Positions 2 to 8,710 of a stretch of 8,710 nucleotides of DNA are shown here, piece by piece. This stretch comes from Myxococcales bacterium (lineage in GTDB: Bacteria; Desulfobacterota_B; Binatia; UBA1149; SPBQ01). The first letter of the stretch is position 1; every line of letters begins with the position of its first letter. A program made the position numbers and the translations under genes. The DNA lies in contig SPBQ01000068.1 in NCBI GenBank assembly GCA_004525875.1, positions 1 through 8,710 on the forward strand, written 5' to 3'. The notes under the pieces are model-generated. The model was given only the letters and a program-made list of their open reading frames with translations. It did no database searches and was not told the origin of the DNA.

Positions 2-2974
2 GCGAAGATCGGACGACGCGAGACGCTGAAGGCTTGCCCGGCGTTGGTGCTGTTAGCGGCGGTGGTCTTGGGGTCGCCCGTTCAGGCTTTGGCTCAGAGC
101 GAGGACCAGCAGCGCTGTGTCCGCACGCGCCACCAAGGCTTCGAGAAGATGCTCAAGGAGCAGGCGGGAGAAGCTCGTCGCTGCTTGAAGGATGCGGCGA
201 AGGATCAGCTCGCCGCTTCGTTCGGAGCGTGTCTGGGAGCGGACGCGAAGGGAGGCGTCGAGAAGCGGCGCTTCAAGAACATCGACAAGGCGTTAAAGGA
301 TTGTACCGAGGCGCCCAGCTTCGGGCCGCGCGACGTCGCGACTGTGAACGCGACGGCGATCCAGTCCCAAGGTGCGATGCTCGAAGACGTCTTTGGCTCG
401 GCCCTCGATACCGCGATCGCACGACAGGCCGTCGCGCCCGACGCTGCGAAGTGCCAGCAGGCGGTATACAAGGCAGTCGACGGATGTCAGCGCAGCAAGC
501 TCACGGGTGTGGGGAAGTGCATCAAGAAAGGACTCCAGGACGGGAGCGTTGCGGGCGAAGCGGGTGTTGCGGCATGTGCTGATGGAATCGACTCCGGGGC
601 GGACGACGCGAAAGTTCTGAAGGCCTGCGGCACAGGGAAGATCCTCAAGCAGATCCGCAAGCGTTGCGACGCAACGGGAGTGAATCTCACGGCCGCGTTT
701 CCCGGCTGTTCCGCCGCAGGTGATTCTGCCTCACTGGCACGGTGCCTCGACAGTGTCGTCGAGTGCCGGGTCTGCCTGTCGCTGAATCGCGCCGACTTCC
801 TGGACCGGGACTGCGACGCGTTCGACGACGGAGCCAAGAATGGTAGCTGTCTCGGTGTCGACCGCTGGGGGGGACACACGAGCGTCGAGAGCGGGGCGAC
901 AGGCCGCTTTCGTGTCGAAGAGATTGACGGGCTCTGGCACTTGATCACGCCCGATGGTCACGGGTTCTTCGCGGCCGCGGTCAACAGTGTGACCCAGGGC
1001 GCGTTCTCGCCGCCCATCGGGACCAATCCCTACAAGGACAACATTCTCGCGCTGTACGGAAGCGAGGATGTCTGGGTCGAGGTCAGCCTCGAGCGTCTGC
1101 AACGCTGGAACTTCAACACGGTGGGGGCCTTCGGGCAAGTGATCTCGGCGGGGCGCATGCCCTACACGCCGGTGCGTGACTTCAACTCGACCGCCCCGGA
1201 AGTTCCCGGATGGCCTGCGGGCCAGACGGGTAAGCGTGTTCGCGACTACTTCGACCCGGGCTGGCCTGCAGCGGCTGCGTTGCGCGCCGAGGACCTGCGT
1301 TTCTGCGCCGAGGATCCGTTCTGCATCGGCGCGTTCAGTGACAACGAGCTAGCATGGGGACCGGGCGTGTTCATGGTCGGCACCTACATGGATGCCTACA
1401 TGTCGTTGCCCGCGAGCGCCCCCGGAAAGCTCGAGCTGCAGGCGTTCTTCGAGGAACGCTATGCGGATCTGGCCGCGTTCAACGCAGTGTGGGGGCTCGG
1501 CCTGGCGAGCTTCGACGAGCTTCAGGATCTCGACTCGATCGGTAGCGACCTCGTGTGCGAAGACGGCGGCCGCACGGCCGACCGCCGGGCGTTCATGGTG
1601 TGCGTGGCCACGCGCTACTTCGAGGTGGTCCACGATGCGCTGCGCACGCTCGGATCCGACATGCTGATCCTGGGCCCTCGCTTCACGACGACCTCGGTCG
1701 GACCCGATGTGATTGGCGCTGCGGCGCCCTATCTGGACGTGATCTCGCTCAACCACTACCTGCTCGACGCGGGCGCGCTCAGTATCTTCGCGGGCAACGG
1801 GGGTGTGCTCTACGACTACTACTTCCTCGACAACCGCTTCGCTGATCTCGACGAGATCAACACGCTGTCGGGTCGCCCACTGATGATCACGGAGTACACG
1901 ACGCGGGTGCCGACGCCCGGCGTGGCGGTGCTCTTTCCGCCGTTCTTCCCGACCTATGAGACGCAGGAGGAGCGCACCGGCGCCTACGAGGAGTACCAAC
2001 GCCAGGTCCTCTCGCGCCCGTTCATGGTGGGCACGCACTGGTTTCAGTGGGAAGATCAGCCGGCTACGGGTCGCGGCGACGGCGAGAACAGTCGTTTCGG
2101 CCTGGTCAACATCGAGGACACTCCCTACGAGCTGCTCACTGAGCGCATGACGTTCATGAATGCGCTGACGCCCGAGCGTCCGCTGCCCGCACCGCCGCCG
2201 GTGTTCTTTCCGGATCCCGGTGCGTTCGTCGCAGACGTTGCCGGCTTCACCGAATTCTCGAGCTCGAACATCATCACTGCGCAGACGGTCGCAGGTGCGC
2301 TCGGAACTCGCGTGTTCAGCATCGCGCCGACGGGCTCGGACCGCACCGGATTCTACGTGGGCATACTCCCGGGCCAGAATGTGGCCAGCGCCGCGACCAG
2401 TGGTCCGCTGGTCCTGGAGGCGGGGATTCCCGACGCGAGCGGCCATGCGCCGCTCATGCTCGCACAAGACGTGGTTCTCGGAGTTCAGGCGTTGGTGGGC
2501 GACGTGATCTGTCTGCGACTGACGGCGGCGGGAAGCTCGGGCACGCTGAGCTGCGACGGCGCGATGGGCCACGACGTGACGGTGACGAGCGAAGCCGGCG
2601 AGCTCGCTCCCCCCGAGACGACTCAGGCGTTCCTGGGCACCGACTCGGGCCCGGGCGCCGCGACGCTGATGGTCGTGACCGAGATCGCGCAGCTGCCGGC
2701 GGGCGCGGCGCTGACCGATTGTCTCACGACCGATCAGTACGACCCGCCACGGGTGCGGGCATTCAGCACCGCGATCACGACCGTGACGAAGGGCAGTGAG
2801 GAGCTCATCCTGTCGGGCGAGAACTTCGTGTGCGGTGACGCCGGCACATCGTGGCCGCTCGGCGACTCACCCGGCATGCTCGGCTTCGGTCTGCCGAGCT
2901 TCGATAGCCGCGTGCCCGGTGGCAATCTCGCAGGCGGCTTGCTCTTCGCGGACCGCGCCGACGCGTGTCCCTGA
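2..2974 (+). CDS. Exported agarase-like glycoside hydrolase (clan GH-A type), 5' end outside window
   Basis: Probably hydrolyses a polysaccharide outside the cytoplasm. The frame is open from base 2 and the first available start (TTG at 44) falls inside a signal peptide, so the real start is probably left of the window. Upstream codons give GRRETLK, then a hydrophobic stretch and a cleavage site near ALA-Q. Numbering from TTG 44, residues about 20-270 form a Cys/Lys-rich module ending in DCDAFDDGAKNGSC, a style I know from Binatota-like exported proteins. Residues about 275-715 resemble GH50/GH42-like agarases: TPDGHGFFAAAVNSV, DPFCIGAFSDNELAWG, GPRF, NHYL, MITEYT, HWFQWEDQPATGRGDGEN. E435 (DNE) is the likely acid/base and E617 (TEY) the likely nucleophile. 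Residues about 720-976 form an unrecognised beta-rich domain with a few cysteines. The glycosidase class is fairly sure; the substrate is not. Confidence 0.8.
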   Translation, partial: AKIGRRETLKACPALVLLAAVVLGSPVQALAQSEDQQRCVRTRHQGFEKMLKEQAGEARRCLKDAAKDQLAASFGACLGADAKGGVEKRRFKNIDKALKDCTEAPSFGPRDVATVNATAIQSQGAMLEDVFGSALDTAIARQAVAPDAAKCQQAVYKAVDGCQRSKLTGVGKCIKKGLQDGSVAGEAGVAACADGIDSGADDAKVLKACGTGKILKQIRKRCDATGVNLTAAFPGCSAAGDSASLARCLDSVVECRVCLSLNRADFLDRDCDAFDDGAKNGSCLGVDRWGGHTSVESGATGRFRVEEIDGLWHLITPDGHGFFAAAVNSVTQGAFSPPIGTNPYKDNILALYGSEDVWVEVSLERLQRWNFNTVGAFGQVISAGRMPYTPVRDFNSTAPEVPGWPAGQTGKRVRDYFDPGWPAAAALRAEDLRFCAEDPFCIGAFSDNELAWGPGVFMVGTYMDAYMSLPASAPGKLELQAFFEERYADLAAFNAVWGLGLASFDELQDLDSIGSDLVCEDGGRTADRRAFMVCVATRYFEVVHDALRTLGSDMLILGPRFTTTSVGPDVIGAAAPYLDVISLNHYLLDAGALSIFAGNGGVLYDYYFLDNRFADLDEINTLSGRPLMITEYTTRVPTPGVAVLFPPFFPTYETQEERTGAYEEYQRQVLSRPFMVGTHWFQWEDQPATGRGDGENSRFGLVNIEDTPYELLTERMTFMNALTPERPLPAPPPVFFPDPGAFVADVAGFTEFSSSNIITAQTVAGALGTRVFSIAPTGSDRTGFYVGILPGQNVASAATSGPLVLEAGIPDASGHAPLMLAQDVVLGVQALVGDVICLRLTAAGSSGTLSCDGAMGHDVTVTSEAGELAPPETTQAFLGTDSGPGAATLMVVTEIAQLPAGAALTDCLTTDQYDPPRVRAFSTAITTVTKGSEELILSGENFVCGDAGTSWPLGDSPGMLGFGLPSFDSRVPGGNLAGGLLFADRADACP

Positions 2975-3061: not shown

Positions 3062-3736
3062 TCATGGCGCGCACGCGCAGGCCTGCTGGCCTCCGCCGGC
3101 CGCCAGGTTCGGATCCAGAACGCCACAGTTCAACCTCGCGCCGCCCGACTCGTAGCAGCCGGTTGGCTGGAGGCATGCTGCGTCGAGGGCGGGCGTGCCC
3201 CCGGCGCCGAGCGCGTCGAGAACCTCGTCGCAGTTGGCCGCAACTGAGAGGGCATAACCAGTGCCGGCTGCATCGTACGTCAGGCCCGCCGCGGCGCACG
3301 TATCGTTGCAGTTCACGCCGAGATCGGTCAGGAAGTACGACGCGCCGCCGACAATCGTACCGGGCGTCGATGGCATGCACACCAGCGTTGCCTTCTTGAG
3401 CTCGAGCGTGTGGATCGTGAGCTGATCGTTGGCGGTGACATCGGACGGTAGGGTCCCGGTGCACTTGGCCTTGTAGCAGACGAATCCCGCCGAGGCAGGG
3501 CCTCGCGGGTCGTCGCCGGCGTCTTTCTCGGAAGGCGACAGATAGAACCCCGCCTTCTTCGGTTCGCACGTGAGGAGGGTTCCGTTGTCGTCGAGCGTGA
3601 AGGTCCCACCGGCCTTGAACTTGTCGAGATCCTTTATCTTGTAGCCCATGAGGTGGTCGCGCTCCGCGTGTGCGGCCTCGATGCCGAGCGCGAGCGTCAC
3701 GACGGCGACCGTCGCCAGAACCCGTTTGAGTGTCAT
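3062..3736 (-). CDS. Secreted cysteine-rich protein with a DHxxxYK-type domain, function unknown
   Basis: A 224-residue protein with a clear Sec signal peptide: MTLKR, a hydrophobic core, and a likely cut after AHA at about residue 25. The mature part opens with DHLMGYKIKDLDKFK. It continues with paired segments typical of a domain I recall as DUF7450-like: LLTCEPKK, then FVCYKAKC, and finally a DQL...TLVCMPS closing element at about residues 25-125. The C-terminal half (about 140-224) is a separate Cys-rich module beginning GVNCNDTCAAAGLTYD and ending in QQACACAP; it contains the phrases LGAGGTP and CYESGGARLNC. No catalytic motif is visible, and an extracellular binding or structural role is only a guess. 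The start is supported by GGGGGAG six bases upstream. The gene converges on the glycosidase. It lies downstream of the AhpD-like operon on the same strand but probably has its own promoter in the 74-base gap. Confidence 0.85.
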   Translation of the reverse strand: MTLKRVLATVAVVTLALGIEAAHAERDHLMGYKIKDLDKFKAGGTFTLDDNGTLLTCEPKKAGFYLSPSEKDAGDDPRGPASAGFVCYKAKCTGTLPSDVTANDQLTIHTLELKKATLVCMPSTPGTIVGGASYFLTDLGVNCNDTCAAAGLTYDAAGTGYALSVAANCDEVLDALGAGGTPALDAACLQPTGCYESGGARLNCGVLDPNLAAGGGQQACACAP

Positions 3737-3810: not shown

Positions 3811-4008
3811 TTACGCGGTCACTGGCGGCTTGTCTACACACGAGCTGGGGGCGGGGTAGGATTTGTCGACGTCGATCACGATGGCGCAAGTGAGGATGCC
3901 GGACGCGCGGGCTGTCGTGACCGCGTCGCTGGCGTCCACGGTACAGATGCGCAGCCTCAAGGGCTCGATGCCAACGGGGACTGGCAGCGTGAACCGCGCG
4001 CCGCTCAC
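3811..4008 (-). pseudogene. Short ORF or C-terminal gene remnant overlapping the AhpD-like stop
   Basis: Sixty-five codons from a GTG whose GTGA overlaps the TGA of the AhpD-like gene, ending at TAA 3811. The translation reads like a protein C-terminus: FTLPVPVGIEPLRLRICTVD, then SGILTCAIVIDVDKSYPAPS. It alternates hydrophobic residues as beta strands do, has three cysteines, and has no signal peptide. This resembles the tail of a secreted Binatota-style protein rather than a complete gene, so I favour a remnant. Alternatives are a small translationally coupled protein, although the only candidate ribosome site, GGAGG, is 12 bases from the GTG. It could also be a true extension of the AhpD-like protein hidden by a frameshift in the run of seven C on the minus strand (4010-4016). 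I do not recognise the sequence. Confidence 0.3.
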
Positions 4009-4598
4009 CGGGGGGGCGGTCCTCCGTCCGACCGTGGCTTCTCGGGAAGCGCACACACCGCTCCCTCCGAGAAGTCCTGTGATCCAATGTCGAGCGCGTG
4101 GTTGAAGCGCGCGCGGTAGTTCTCCCAGGCAATCGCGGCGGTTAGCTCGACGAGCTGAGCGTTGTCGAAGAGGGCGCGGAGGCGGTCGAAGAGCTCGTCT
4201 CTCACCTCGACCGGTGTGCCCGTCATGCACTCGGCGTACGTGAGAACGAGCTTCTCCGTCTCGTCGAACGCTCCGCTCTCGCCGTAGCGCGGGAGCTCGT
4301 GCATCTGCTCTTCCGTGATGCCGACTTTTCTGCCGGCGGCAGAACCGATGTCGATTCAAAACGGGCAGCCGACCATCGCGCCGGCCTTGAGCCCTGCCAG
4401 TACCTTGAGCTTCGGATCGACGCGCCTGGCTCGCTCCAGCCCCGTCTCGTAGGCGCCGTAGGCTCCAAGGATCCAGGCAGAGTGAGCCGCGACCGCCACC
4501 GGCTCGGCGACCTTGCCGAGCTTGCGCCTCGAGTAGCGATAGGAGAGCCGGGCGAGGAGGCCGGCACGGCTCTCGGGGACGCCGTCGATTCTGCTCAT
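4005..4598 (-). CDS. AhpD-like (carboxymuconolactone decarboxylase family) probable selenoprotein with CPF-U motif
   Basis: Read through one in-frame TGA, this is a 197-residue AhpD/CMD-fold protein, a family of small thiol-based peroxidases and related enzymes. Residues 1-80 (MSRIDGVPESRAGLLARL through LAGLKAGAMVGCPF) and 82-197 (IDIGS, GITEEQ, ELPRYGESGAF, EKLVLTYAE, NAQLVELTAAIAWENYRARF, FSEGAVCALPE) are the two halves of one known family, in the same frame with nothing missing. The TGA (4356-4358, codon 81) replaces the second cysteine of the family's GCPFCIDIGS, giving C78-P-F-U81. A hairpin follows at the right distance. The ATG at 4598 matches the family N-terminus (M-x-R-I) and overlaps the stop of a 12-codon leader ORF (ATGA). 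It probably shares a transcript with the oxidoreductase upstream. The alternatives are a nonsense-mutated pseudogene or a base-call error (TGC to TGA), but the hairpin makes selenocysteine more likely. AhpD-like selenoproteins with CxxU are a known class. Confidence 0.75.
4321..4358 (-). promoter_or_regulatory. Candidate bacterial SECIS element after the in-frame TGA
   Basis: On the minus strand the TGA is followed by 11 bases, then TTCTGCC-GCC-GGCAGAA. This is a perfect 7-bp stem (4344-4338 with 4334-4328) with a 3-nt apical loop whose first base is G. The loop begins 18 bases after the TGA, inside the 16-37 range I recall for bSECIS elements. A lower stem of 5 pairs (TCGAC 4354-4350 with GTCGG 4325-4321, one G-U) closes over a 5/2 internal loop. 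The stem is encoded by GGT TCT GCC GCC GGC AGA AAA; TCT, AGA and AAA are AT-richer choices than is usual in this GC-rich gene, as expected if RNA pairing constrains the codons. The base pairing is seen directly; the function is inferred. Confidence 0.65.
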
Positions 4599-4633
4599 GC
4601 GCTCGCTCGTAGCCAGAATAATAGTAGTCTCAT
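4595..4633 (-). CDS. Twelve-residue leader ORF coupled to the AhpD-like gene
   Basis: ATG at 4633 has the best Shine-Dalgarno of this operon, AAGGAG, six bases upstream. It encodes MRLLLFWLRASA and stops at a TGA that overlaps the ATG of the AhpD-like gene as ATGA. All four leucines use rare codons for this genome (CTA, CTA, TTA, CTA), beside AGA and CGA. The layout suggests translational coupling, with ribosomes recruited to the leader and passed to the next start, whose own upstream bases (GAGCGAG) are weak. Rare leucine codons would allow leader-mediated control, but I see no terminator/antiterminator pair. A rival reading is that the AT-rich stretch is a promoter -10 (TATTAT, minus strand 4623-4618) for a short-leader transcript, so that the ORF is accidental. 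Confidence 0.4.
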   Translation of the reverse strand: MRLLLFWLRASA

Positions 4634-4700: not shown

Positions 4701-5708
4701 TCACGGGCCAGTGCCGTCGCTCCCGCCGCCCACGCGCACGACGATCCGGCCCACCGAATCGCGGTCGGCGACCCGCTGCAGCGCGACCGGGACTTCTTCG
4801 AAGCCGACGGTTGCGTCGATGTGGGGTCGAAGGGCGCCGCGCTCGAACAGGTCGAGCAGCGCGTCGTGGTTGCGCTCCATCGCGACGCGCCCGAAGCCGT
4901 TGGGGAGCACCCCGACGATCGACAGGTTGTTCATCAGGACCAGGTCCATCGGCGCGCGTCCCCAGCGCCCGCTGGCGAACCCGATCGGAAGAATTCGACC
5001 GAGCATCGCCATGCACTCGAATGACCGCTCGTAGGTATCGCCGCCGACGGGGTCGTAGACGAGGTCGACGCCGCGCATGTCGGTGGCCTCGCGAACGGCC
5101 TCCACGAAGTCGCGGGCGCGGTGGTCGATCACCGTGTCGGCGCCCATGCGCTCGCACACGGCCACCTTGTGCGGTCCGCCGGCGGTGGCGATCACGTTCG
5201 CCCCGAGAGCCTTGCCGAGCTGGATCGCTGCCGTACCGACGCCGCCGGCGCCGCCGTGAACCAGGAGCGTCTCCCCCGCAACCAGCTTTCCCCGCGTGAC
5301 GAGCCCGACGTAGCCGGTGTGGTAAGCGATGAAGAATGCAGCGGCTTGCTGCGCGCTCATGCTCTCTCCCACGCGGTAGAGCTGCTCCTCCGGTACGACG
5401 GCACGCTCGGCCAGCGCGCCATGCCCGGTGATGAAAGAGGAGACGCCGAGAACGCGGTCGCCCGGCTCGAACAGTCGCGCACCGAGGCCGCATGCGACGA
5501 CGGTGCCGGTGAGCTCCTGGCCGGGAGTGAAGGGGAGGCGAGGCGTCAGCAGGTAGCTGTCGCGACACATCAGCGTGTCGGGGAGTCCGAGCGCCACGGC
5601 GCTCACCTCACAGAGGACGTGGCCGGGGGGTAGCTGCGGGTCAGCGACGTCGACAAGGGACATCACGTCGCCGGGTGCGCCGTGTGCGGTGACGTGCCAC
5701 GCCTTCAT
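4701..5708 (-). CDS. MDR-superfamily NADPH:quinone oxidoreductase-like protein (zinc-free)
   Basis: A 335-residue cytoplasmic medium-chain dehydrogenase/reductase, probably reducing quinones or alpha,beta-unsaturated carbonyls with NADPH. The N-terminal GroES-like catalytic domain (about 1-120) carries PGQELTGTV (62-70) and EPGDRV (81-86). The Rossmann domain carries HGGAGGVGTAAIQLGKALGA, with the nucleotide-binding glycines GGAGGVG at 152-158, followed by IDHRARDF and VDLVYDPVGG. The cluster of four structural-zinc cysteines and the catalytic Cys/His zinc ligands of alcohol dehydrogenases are absent, which places it in the quinone-oxidoreductase branch. I chose ATG 5708 because MKAWHVTAHGAPGDV is the family start; an in-frame ATG at 5753 would add 15 unrelated residues. 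No strong ribosome site precedes 5708. It leads the probable operon with the AhpD-like gene 67 bases downstream (to the leader start), consistent with a shared redox or detoxification role. The true substrate is unknown. Confidence 0.85.
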   Translation of the reverse strand: MKAWHVTAHGAPGDVMSLVDVADPQLPPGHVLCEVSAVALGLPDTLMCRDSYLLTPRLPFTPGQELTGTVVACGLGARLFEPGDRVLGVSSFITGHGALAERAVVPEEQLYRVGESMSAQQAAAFFIAYHTGYVGLVTRGKLVAGETLLVHGGAGGVGTAAIQLGKALGANVIATAGGPHKVAVCERMGADTVIDHRARDFVEAVREATDMRGVDLVYDPVGGDTYERSFECMAMLGRILPIGFASGRWGRAPMDLVLMNNLSIVGVLPNGFGRVAMERNHDALLDLFERGALRPHIDATVGFEEVPVALQRVADRDSVGRIVVRVGGGSDGTGP

Positions 5709-5750
5709 GGCGCGAGATTGTCGCCAGTCGGCCGAGACATGGCCAGCGCG

Positions 5751-5762
5751 CACCAGCTGGTG
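5751..5762. promoter_or_regulatory. Perfect 12-bp palindrome in divergent intergenic region, possible operator
   Basis: CACCAGCTGGTG is a perfect palindrome in the 180-base gap between the divergent oxidoreductase (start 5708) and radical SAM gene (start about 5889). It could bind a dimeric repressor controlling one or both. There is no second copy in the gap and no clear -10/-35 pair to anchor it, so the call is weak. Confidence 0.25.
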
Positions 5763-8075: not shown

Positions 8076-8710
8076 CTACGGAGCCTCCGCCTTGAACGAC
8101 GAGACGCCGGTCTTGGTGAGGAGCGATGCCGTGACCGAAAAGCACTCGGGGAGATCTGTGCCGAAGAGCTGAATCGTCGCCCCGGCCGTTGATTCGGCCA
8201 GGGCGGTCGCAACCCCGAGAGGCAACCCGGTCCCGCCGCGGCCTTTGACGACCACCGACGAGCGACCGGCCTCGCGTGCCTTGAGCGAGACCGAGCGGAT
8301 ACCGTAGGCGGTAAGATCGCGGTCGTTGTATCGGTAGCCCTTGGCTGCTGCCGTCCCGCCGAGCACTTTCCAGCAGGGATTCCCTCTGCACGAGGCCCCG
8401 GCGCGATCGATCTTGTATTCGCCGACGAGAGCGCCGCTGTCGCCGTACACGCACATCGCGTAGGCCGTCGTGCCGCTGCTCGGGTCGCCGAAGTCGGCGG
8501 CCACGAGCTGGGGCCCGGCTTTCCATTTGGCAACCAGCTTTTCCTTGCCCGCCCTTCGCTCGTCGACCGTGAGCAGCGCCTTCGCGAACACGGCCCCACA
8601 ATCACCGTCCGGCGCTGCGGGGCACGTGATCAAGGTCGTTGTCGTAGTCGAAGCCATGCTCGTGCTGGTGCTGGACGTGGATGTGGTGGTGGACGTGCTC
8701 GTCGTGGTGC
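8076..8710 (-). CDS. Thr/Ser-linker secreted-style protein, 5' end outside window
   Basis: The frame is open to the right edge, so the true start and any signal peptide are missing. An internal ATG at 8657 sits inside the linker and is unlikely to be the start. The visible 210 residues open with a Thr/Ser tract (TTTSTSTTTSTSSTSTS, then STTTTT). A domain follows with CPAAPDGDCGAVF, KLVAKWKAGPQ, FGDPSSGTTAYAMCVY, CWKVLG, GYRYND, SLKAREAGRSSVVVKGRGG, TIQLFGTDLPECF. This linker-plus-domain plan, with a KWK-type segment and FGDP...YxxCVY, is one I associate with surface proteins of Binatota-like genomes. The function is unknown; no catalytic motif is visible. The tract probably joins the domain to an upstream exported module. 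Confidence 0.8.
   Translation of the reverse strand, partial: TTTSTSTTTSTSSTSTSMASTTTTTLITCPAAPDGDCGAVFAKALLTVDERRAGKEKLVAKWKAGPQLVAADFGDPSSGTTAYAMCVYGDSGALVGEYKIDRAGASCRGNPCWKVLGGTAAAKGYRYNDRDLTAYGIRSVSLKAREAGRSSVVVKGRGGTGLPLGVATALAESTAGATIQLFGTDLPECFSVTASLLTKTGVSSFKAEAP
8640..8710 (-). repeat. Low-complexity Thr/Ser codon tract
   Basis: On the minus strand this stretch is almost entirely ACC/ACG/ACA/ACT (Thr) and AGC/TCC/TCG (Ser) codons, encoding the flexible linker of the right-edge protein. Such tracts vary in length by slippage and are prone to misassembly, so the exact count may be unreliable. Confidence 0.6.

Follow-up and report, generated by a model that had tools for sequence, protein, structure and literature searches.

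An AhpD-like gene split by an in-frame TGA at its CxxC motif is very probably a selenoprotein gene

AhpD-like proteins with a CxxU motif have been in the selenoprotein literature since 2005, when a survey of the Sargasso Sea recorded 27 such sequences and named, in a figure legend, a predicted selenocysteine insertion sequence (SECIS) for an AhpD-like protein (PMC1088965). The Global Ocean Sampling (GOS) data were reported to contain 299 sequences of AhpD-like 1 and 70 of AhpD-like 2 (PMC2398784), and several families of AhpD/CMD (carboxymuconolactone decarboxylase) selenoproteins are listed in reviews of 2022 and 2026 (PMC9312934, PMC13188914). Since these records exist, the enzyme class is already known, as the original prediction for the locus described here had said. 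The locus lies on an 8,710-nucleotide (nt) stretch of bacterial DNA (contig SPBQ01000068.1; the whole stretch is called the window), in which an AhpD/CMD-family gene is interrupted by an in-frame TGA. We consider it a genuine selenoprotein gene whose TGA is read as selenocysteine (Sec), with a probability of about 0.95. According to the published descriptions, the AhpD-like selenoproteins of COG2128/PF02627 have in common with the window protein the CMD/AhpD domain, the CxxU motif and the many cysteine homologues; the Sargasso Sea and GOS surveys are marine, and the likeness to their AhpD-like proteins is one of description only. No paper on the subfamily of the window gene was found in the article text searched, which does not exclude that one exists, and for Binatota combined with selenocysteine the word was met only within a reference title.

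The gene extends from 4005 to 4598 on the minus strand (ATG at 4598-4596, terminator TGA at 4007-4005); these coordinates are those originally proposed, to which the strand is now added. Translation from 4598 to 4005 with TGA read as Sec (U) gave 197 residues, and the only internal TGA is codon 81 (4356..4358, minus strand), which would complete the redox motif C78-P-F-U81. Mechanical calling of open reading frames (ORFs) in the window split the gene into pieces of 80 and 99 residues, the outcome that had been anticipated for standard annotation, and no further disabling change was seen besides the TGA. The read-through protein scored 32.2 bits with PF02627 (CMD; curated cut-off of 23), while neither half alone reached Pfam at E 0.001, which bears out the proposal of one gene in one frame cut only by the TGA. 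Residues 82-197, encoded 3' of the TGA (4008..4355, minus strand), are conserved and belong to the same predicted domain.

The search with the full-length protein returned 1064 relatives at E ≤ 0.001 among 2157 candidates, and the figures for its homologues refer to the best 120 of these 1064 (P0002-P0121). These carboxymuconolactone decarboxylase family proteins are predicted as unbroken and are up to 69% identical to the window protein, the top relative over 95% of the query length. A CxxC motif was present at the site in 116 of the 120, in the form CE[FWY]C in 107 of those 116; among the remaining four, P0087 has lost the first cysteine, and P0053, P0111 and P0120 read GCPFW at the Sec site, where a gene caller using genetic code 4 probably took TGA as tryptophan. 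As had been proposed, the TGA thus appears to stand at the second cysteine of the motif, and an in-frame TGA at a cysteine position is one of the criteria for bacterial selenoproteins.

In a comparison with curated models, the score of the window protein fell short of the cut-off for all NCBIfam models. The best match was NF053654 (GroundWater_YciW, YciW-related (seleno)protein), which aligned residues 1-175 with positions 1-175 of its 179 (E 1e-35) at 123.1 bits, against a curated cut-off of 310. Among ten relatives scanned with this model, L036, which has TGA at codon 81, scored 250.9 and the nine others 92-138 bits; the motif is CPFU-IDIGS in the window and CVFU-QDINAA in L036. TIGR01926 (peroxidase-related enzyme) and TIGR00778 (AhpD core domain) gave 24.0 bits (cut-off 81.8) and 20.5 bits (cut-off 27.8), respectively. 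The window protein is 17-18% identical to the debrominase Bmp8 (6ohi) and to an AhpD-like alkyl hydroperoxide reductase from Deinococcus radiodurans (6k40); we take both to be cysteine enzymes, a point on which only the title of 6ohj (C82A) bears.

Short relatives were sought with the 80-residue N-terminal half as query, because a full-length query misses truncated relatives under the length rule of the search. Thirty-eight of the 42 candidates passed, and all 38 stop exactly at GCPF, with lengths of 58 to 93 residues (80 in 28 of them). Their identity to the window protein ranges from 41 to 94%, so they are not copies of one error; none of these 38 database protein clusters has a Pfam domain and only two bear an AhpD-type name. 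Public species genomes were then scanned with an alignment of 29 short relatives and three full-length proteins, in a way that was blind to codon 81 because the search pattern ended at GCP. The scan gave seven loci (Acidobacteria-type titles for six, a Chloroflexi title for the other), and codon 81 was TGA in all seven. Matches at 1e-20 came from 14 of the 396 genomes in the phylum of G002 (titled Acidobacteria), and codon 81 of the 16 matches was TGA in 14 and TGC in two (L037 and L042). At 1e-25, matches came from 22 of the 400 genomes in the phylum of G007 (titled Chloroflexi), with TGA in 18 matches and TGC in 4 (L051, L052, L069 and L070). L032 and L060, which repeat L002 and L007, respectively, are outside the counts of pooled TGA sequences given below. 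The exchange at codon 81 to which the original prediction had pointed is thus found, with TGA in most loci, TGC in 6, and TGA persisting in relatives with as little as 31% identity. In L055 (G772) another in-frame TGA follows the Sec codon at a distance of 26 codons, which could be either a double Sec or decay. An in-frame TAG first listed for L050 and L051, both in the phylum of G007, was set aside, as codon 81 is TGA and TGC in them, respectively, and the aligned region contains no TAG.

A search 3' of the TGA, where a SECIS element had been anticipated, gave a covarying SECIS-like hairpin, TTCTGCC-GCC-GGCAGAA (4328..4344, minus strand), with 7 base pairs (bp) and a 3-nt loop, 11 nt 3' of the TGA. 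Covariation was measured on 19 of an initial 21 sequences with TGA, the two left out being L043 and L044, in which the hairpin is 2 nt further on. In this alignment 92.5% of the cells were paired and double-sided changes occurred in five of the seven pairs, and none of 500 shuffles did as well in paired percentage, in number of double-changed cells or in covariation score. When the partner was slid by 1-3 columns the paired share dropped to 31-60%, and RNAalifold, unprompted, returned the same helix with 6 pairs and a 5-nt loop. In the 38 TGA sequences the five core pairs were complete in 34, and four of the five were present in L033 and L034, while L043 and L044 had a complete 7-bp hairpin at +2 nt, an offset picked after seeing both. 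None of the 6 TGC loci had a complete core, L042 having four of five pairs and L069 six of seven at the +2 offset. The mean number of pairs out of 7 was 6.33 in 36 sequences but 3.68 (sd 0.20) after a synonymous-codon redraw and 3.53 (sd 0.20) when the redraw used GC-rich third bases, and 0 of 2000 draws was as high as the observed pairing in either control. For the window alone these controls gave P values of 0.007 and 0.003, respectively, and the first loop base was a G in 35 of the 36 sequences. The hairpin required of a bacterial selenoprotein gene is thus present by covariation and the codon control, the fold of the window alone being equivocal; Rfam at gathering thresholds and ARAGORN gave no matches on the window. 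With the shared GCPF ends and the TGA of all seven scanned loci, the covarying hairpin puts the pattern far outside chance. L043 and L044 form a distant branch with the motif CEYU-TRAHT, and their 5' arms (CTGCTTC and CCGCTTC, respectively) differ from the rest.

Comparison of L002 and L003 showed that the ratio of nonsynonymous to synonymous substitution (dN/dS) was about 0.11 over the 106 codons after the TGA (dN 0.065, dS 0.619) and about 0.15 over the 78 codons before it (dN 0.088, dS 0.569). For the window and L001 the ratios were about 0.23 after and 0.19 before the TGA, at dS values (1.1 and 2.0) too high to be trusted. Past the TGA, the reading frame of the relatives behaves as protein-coding sequence under purifying selection. 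On a quickly built tree with 106 rows (38 Sec, 65 Cys and 3 W, with 62 of the 120 listed database proteins included), 7 changes between Sec and Cys were needed, and well-supported branches force at least 3 of these, so that residue 81 has probably been exchanged between Sec and Cys more than once. The tree program warned of long branches, including L037 and L042, and support was not strong for the placement of the window close to L001 (Sec) and P0002-P0006 (Cys). A glutamate follows the first cysteine in 54 of the 65 Cys homologues, against 8 of the 38 Sec copies. The idea that Sec makes this nearby Glu79 unnecessary was rejected, as the 3 independent pairs on well-supported branches were discordant, and the difference may be lineage history alone.

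The Sec machinery was surveyed in the genomes of relatives. In the seven scanned genomes, selB, tRNA-Sec and selA were over cut-off in six and selD in all seven; because selD has an in-frame TGA in five of them (G001, G002, G003, G005 and G007), selenophosphate synthetase is probably itself a selenoprotein there. When all sets were taken together, selA was over cut-off in 32 of the 35 genomes with the TGA form, compared to a background of 250 of 396 genomes in the phylum of G002 (binomial tail 1.6e-4, a value that mixes phyla and ignores kinship). The TGA form is associated with selA, although not sharply, since so many genomes of that phylum have the gene. In control genomes, the tRNA-Sec model at 1e-9 gave matches in E. 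coli and Methanocaldococcus jannaschii, and also in Thermus composti.

Several results weigh against reading the TGA as Sec. Two less strict covariation measures were matched by 3 and 9 of the 500 shuffles, and the GCC loop of the window occurs in only 1 of the 36 sequences. When 45 nt of the window, from the TGA onwards, were folded alone, a different structure was preferred (-16.4 kcal/mol, z -2.2), and it took a shorter piece for the hairpin to be the minimum (-9.1, z -1.9). The machinery evidence is drawn from relatives, the window's own genome being outside the survey, and even among genomes with the TGA form selA was below cut-off in three, namely G003, where selB and tRNA-Sec were also below, G111, which has tRNA-Sec, and G619, without tRNA-Sec at E 1e-9. 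G003 is likely an incomplete or mixed bin, because its selD carries an in-frame TGA. Since selA was over cut-off in 5 of the 6 Cys-form genomes as well, the machinery does not separate the TGA and Cys forms. The enzymatic role, moreover, is read from fold and motif.

One in-frame stop within a conserved domain could also mark a pseudogene, with the TGA as a nonsense mutation and the C-terminal half decaying, and the drawing of the machinery evidence from other organisms favours that view; however, the same TGA in relatives as distant as 31% identity, the hairpin retained behind it, the purifying selection on the following frame in relatives and the lack of any other visible disabling change in the window gene make a pseudogene very improbable. 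The Cys form is only one base away, as an error of sequencing or assembly (TGC read as TGA) would require, but P0122, which at 94% identity is not the window's own product, and 37 other short relatives end at the same codon, and we give such an error next to no credence. Decoding of the TGA as another residue, e.g. tryptophan, through an altered code or near-cognate readthrough would agree with the W at the site in P0053, P0111 and P0120, itself probably a product of code-4 gene calling. This decoding is nevertheless highly unlikely, as the window gene's own terminator is a TGA (4005-4007), apparently placed about where relatives end, the exchange partner is a cysteine at a redox site, and the TGA is accompanied by a SECIS-like hairpin and by selA in nearly all the genomes. 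The Sec reading of the original prediction is thus supported by the TGA/Cys exchange, by the hairpin, by the purifying selection that relatives show 3' of the TGA and by the presence of selA in 32 of the 35 TGA-form genomes.

If the TGA is read as Sec, the ribosome would reach the UGA at codon 81, the hairpin just 3' of it would recruit SelB with Sec-tRNA, and Sec would then be inserted at residue 81; the SelB and Sec-tRNA step is established for bacterial Sec decoding in general rather than drawn from the window's organism. A SelB of foreign origin often decodes bacterial SECIS elements inefficiently. The product is predicted to fold as one all-helical domain whose CPFU selenenylsulfide centre lies where a helix begins; Sec would attack the substrate and Cys78 would resolve it, as fold and motif suggest. 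These point, as the most likely role, to a small-molecule thiol/selenol peroxidase or a thiol/disulfide oxidoreductase (disulfide reductase). The same gene might instead serve other chemistry as a Bmp8-like reductive dehalogenase, which we regard as unlikely; the literature search found no paper pairing Bmp8 with AhpD, or debrominase with carboxymuconolactone decarboxylase. The odds seem even that the gene belongs to an un-modelled AhpD-like selenoprotein subfamily (CPFU-[IM]-DIGS, compact triloop SECIS), mostly of uncultured lineages, with several Sec/Cys exchanges and hidden as short 'hypothetical proteins' that end at the Sec codon.

A 12-codon ORF (4595..4633, minus strand), preceded by AAGGAG (4645-4640), ends in a TGA of its own that shares bases with the start codon of the selenoprotein gene; it is possibly a leader or a means of translational coupling and may be due to chance. 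In L001, L004 and L006 (3 of 6 relatives inspected by eye), a ribosome-binding site lies directly 5' of the gene. Upstream in the window is a gene for a PIG3-like NAD(P)H quinone oxidoreductase/zinc-type alcohol dehydrogenase (4701..5753, minus strand; below the model's cut-off), a possible operon partner in the window only. A conserved operon was rejected, since tblastn at 1e-8 with four window proteins (the quinone oxidoreductase, a radical S-adenosylmethionine (SAM) protein and the proteins at 44-2974 and 3062-3736) gave no match in 73 loci, where the positive control P0001 gave 46 matching stretches. This test bears mainly on L001-L007, with flanks of up to 6 kb a side, because the loci from genome searches have about 1.5 kb at most and many of them are selA, selB, selD or tRNA loci. 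The radical-SAM protein (P0160; 5682-7721, plus strand) is below the cut-off of all NCBIfam models that it matched, and one of its listed homologues, at 64% identity, is named Candidatus Binatia. Its identity to matches in 199 genomes of the phylum of G002 was 56% at most, and 201 genomes of the phylum of G007 gave no match at 1e-60, a blank that carries no weight alone; for the lineage of the window these results are no more than suggestive. The proteins at 44-2974 (plus strand), 3062-3736 (minus strand) and 8076-8708 (minus strand) had no Pfam match at E 0.001, the first two showing, by eye, a signal-like start and a cysteine-rich look.

The window's gene, cut by a stop codon in what appears to be an uncultured bacterium, is therefore most likely a working selenoprotein gene and not debris, and an origin of the window in Binatia, if correct, may add a lineage that uses Sec. 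The hairpin can help to find relatives of the gene. The use of Sec in the AhpD-like family is probably undercounted in databases, because 38 clusters end at the Sec codon without a Pfam domain and only two of them are AhpD-named, while the mixed Sec/Cys tree supplies pairs for testing the contribution of selenium to an AhpD-like enzyme. The class to which the window gene belongs is ordinary, but the gene is a clean, testable and systematically mis-annotated example of it.
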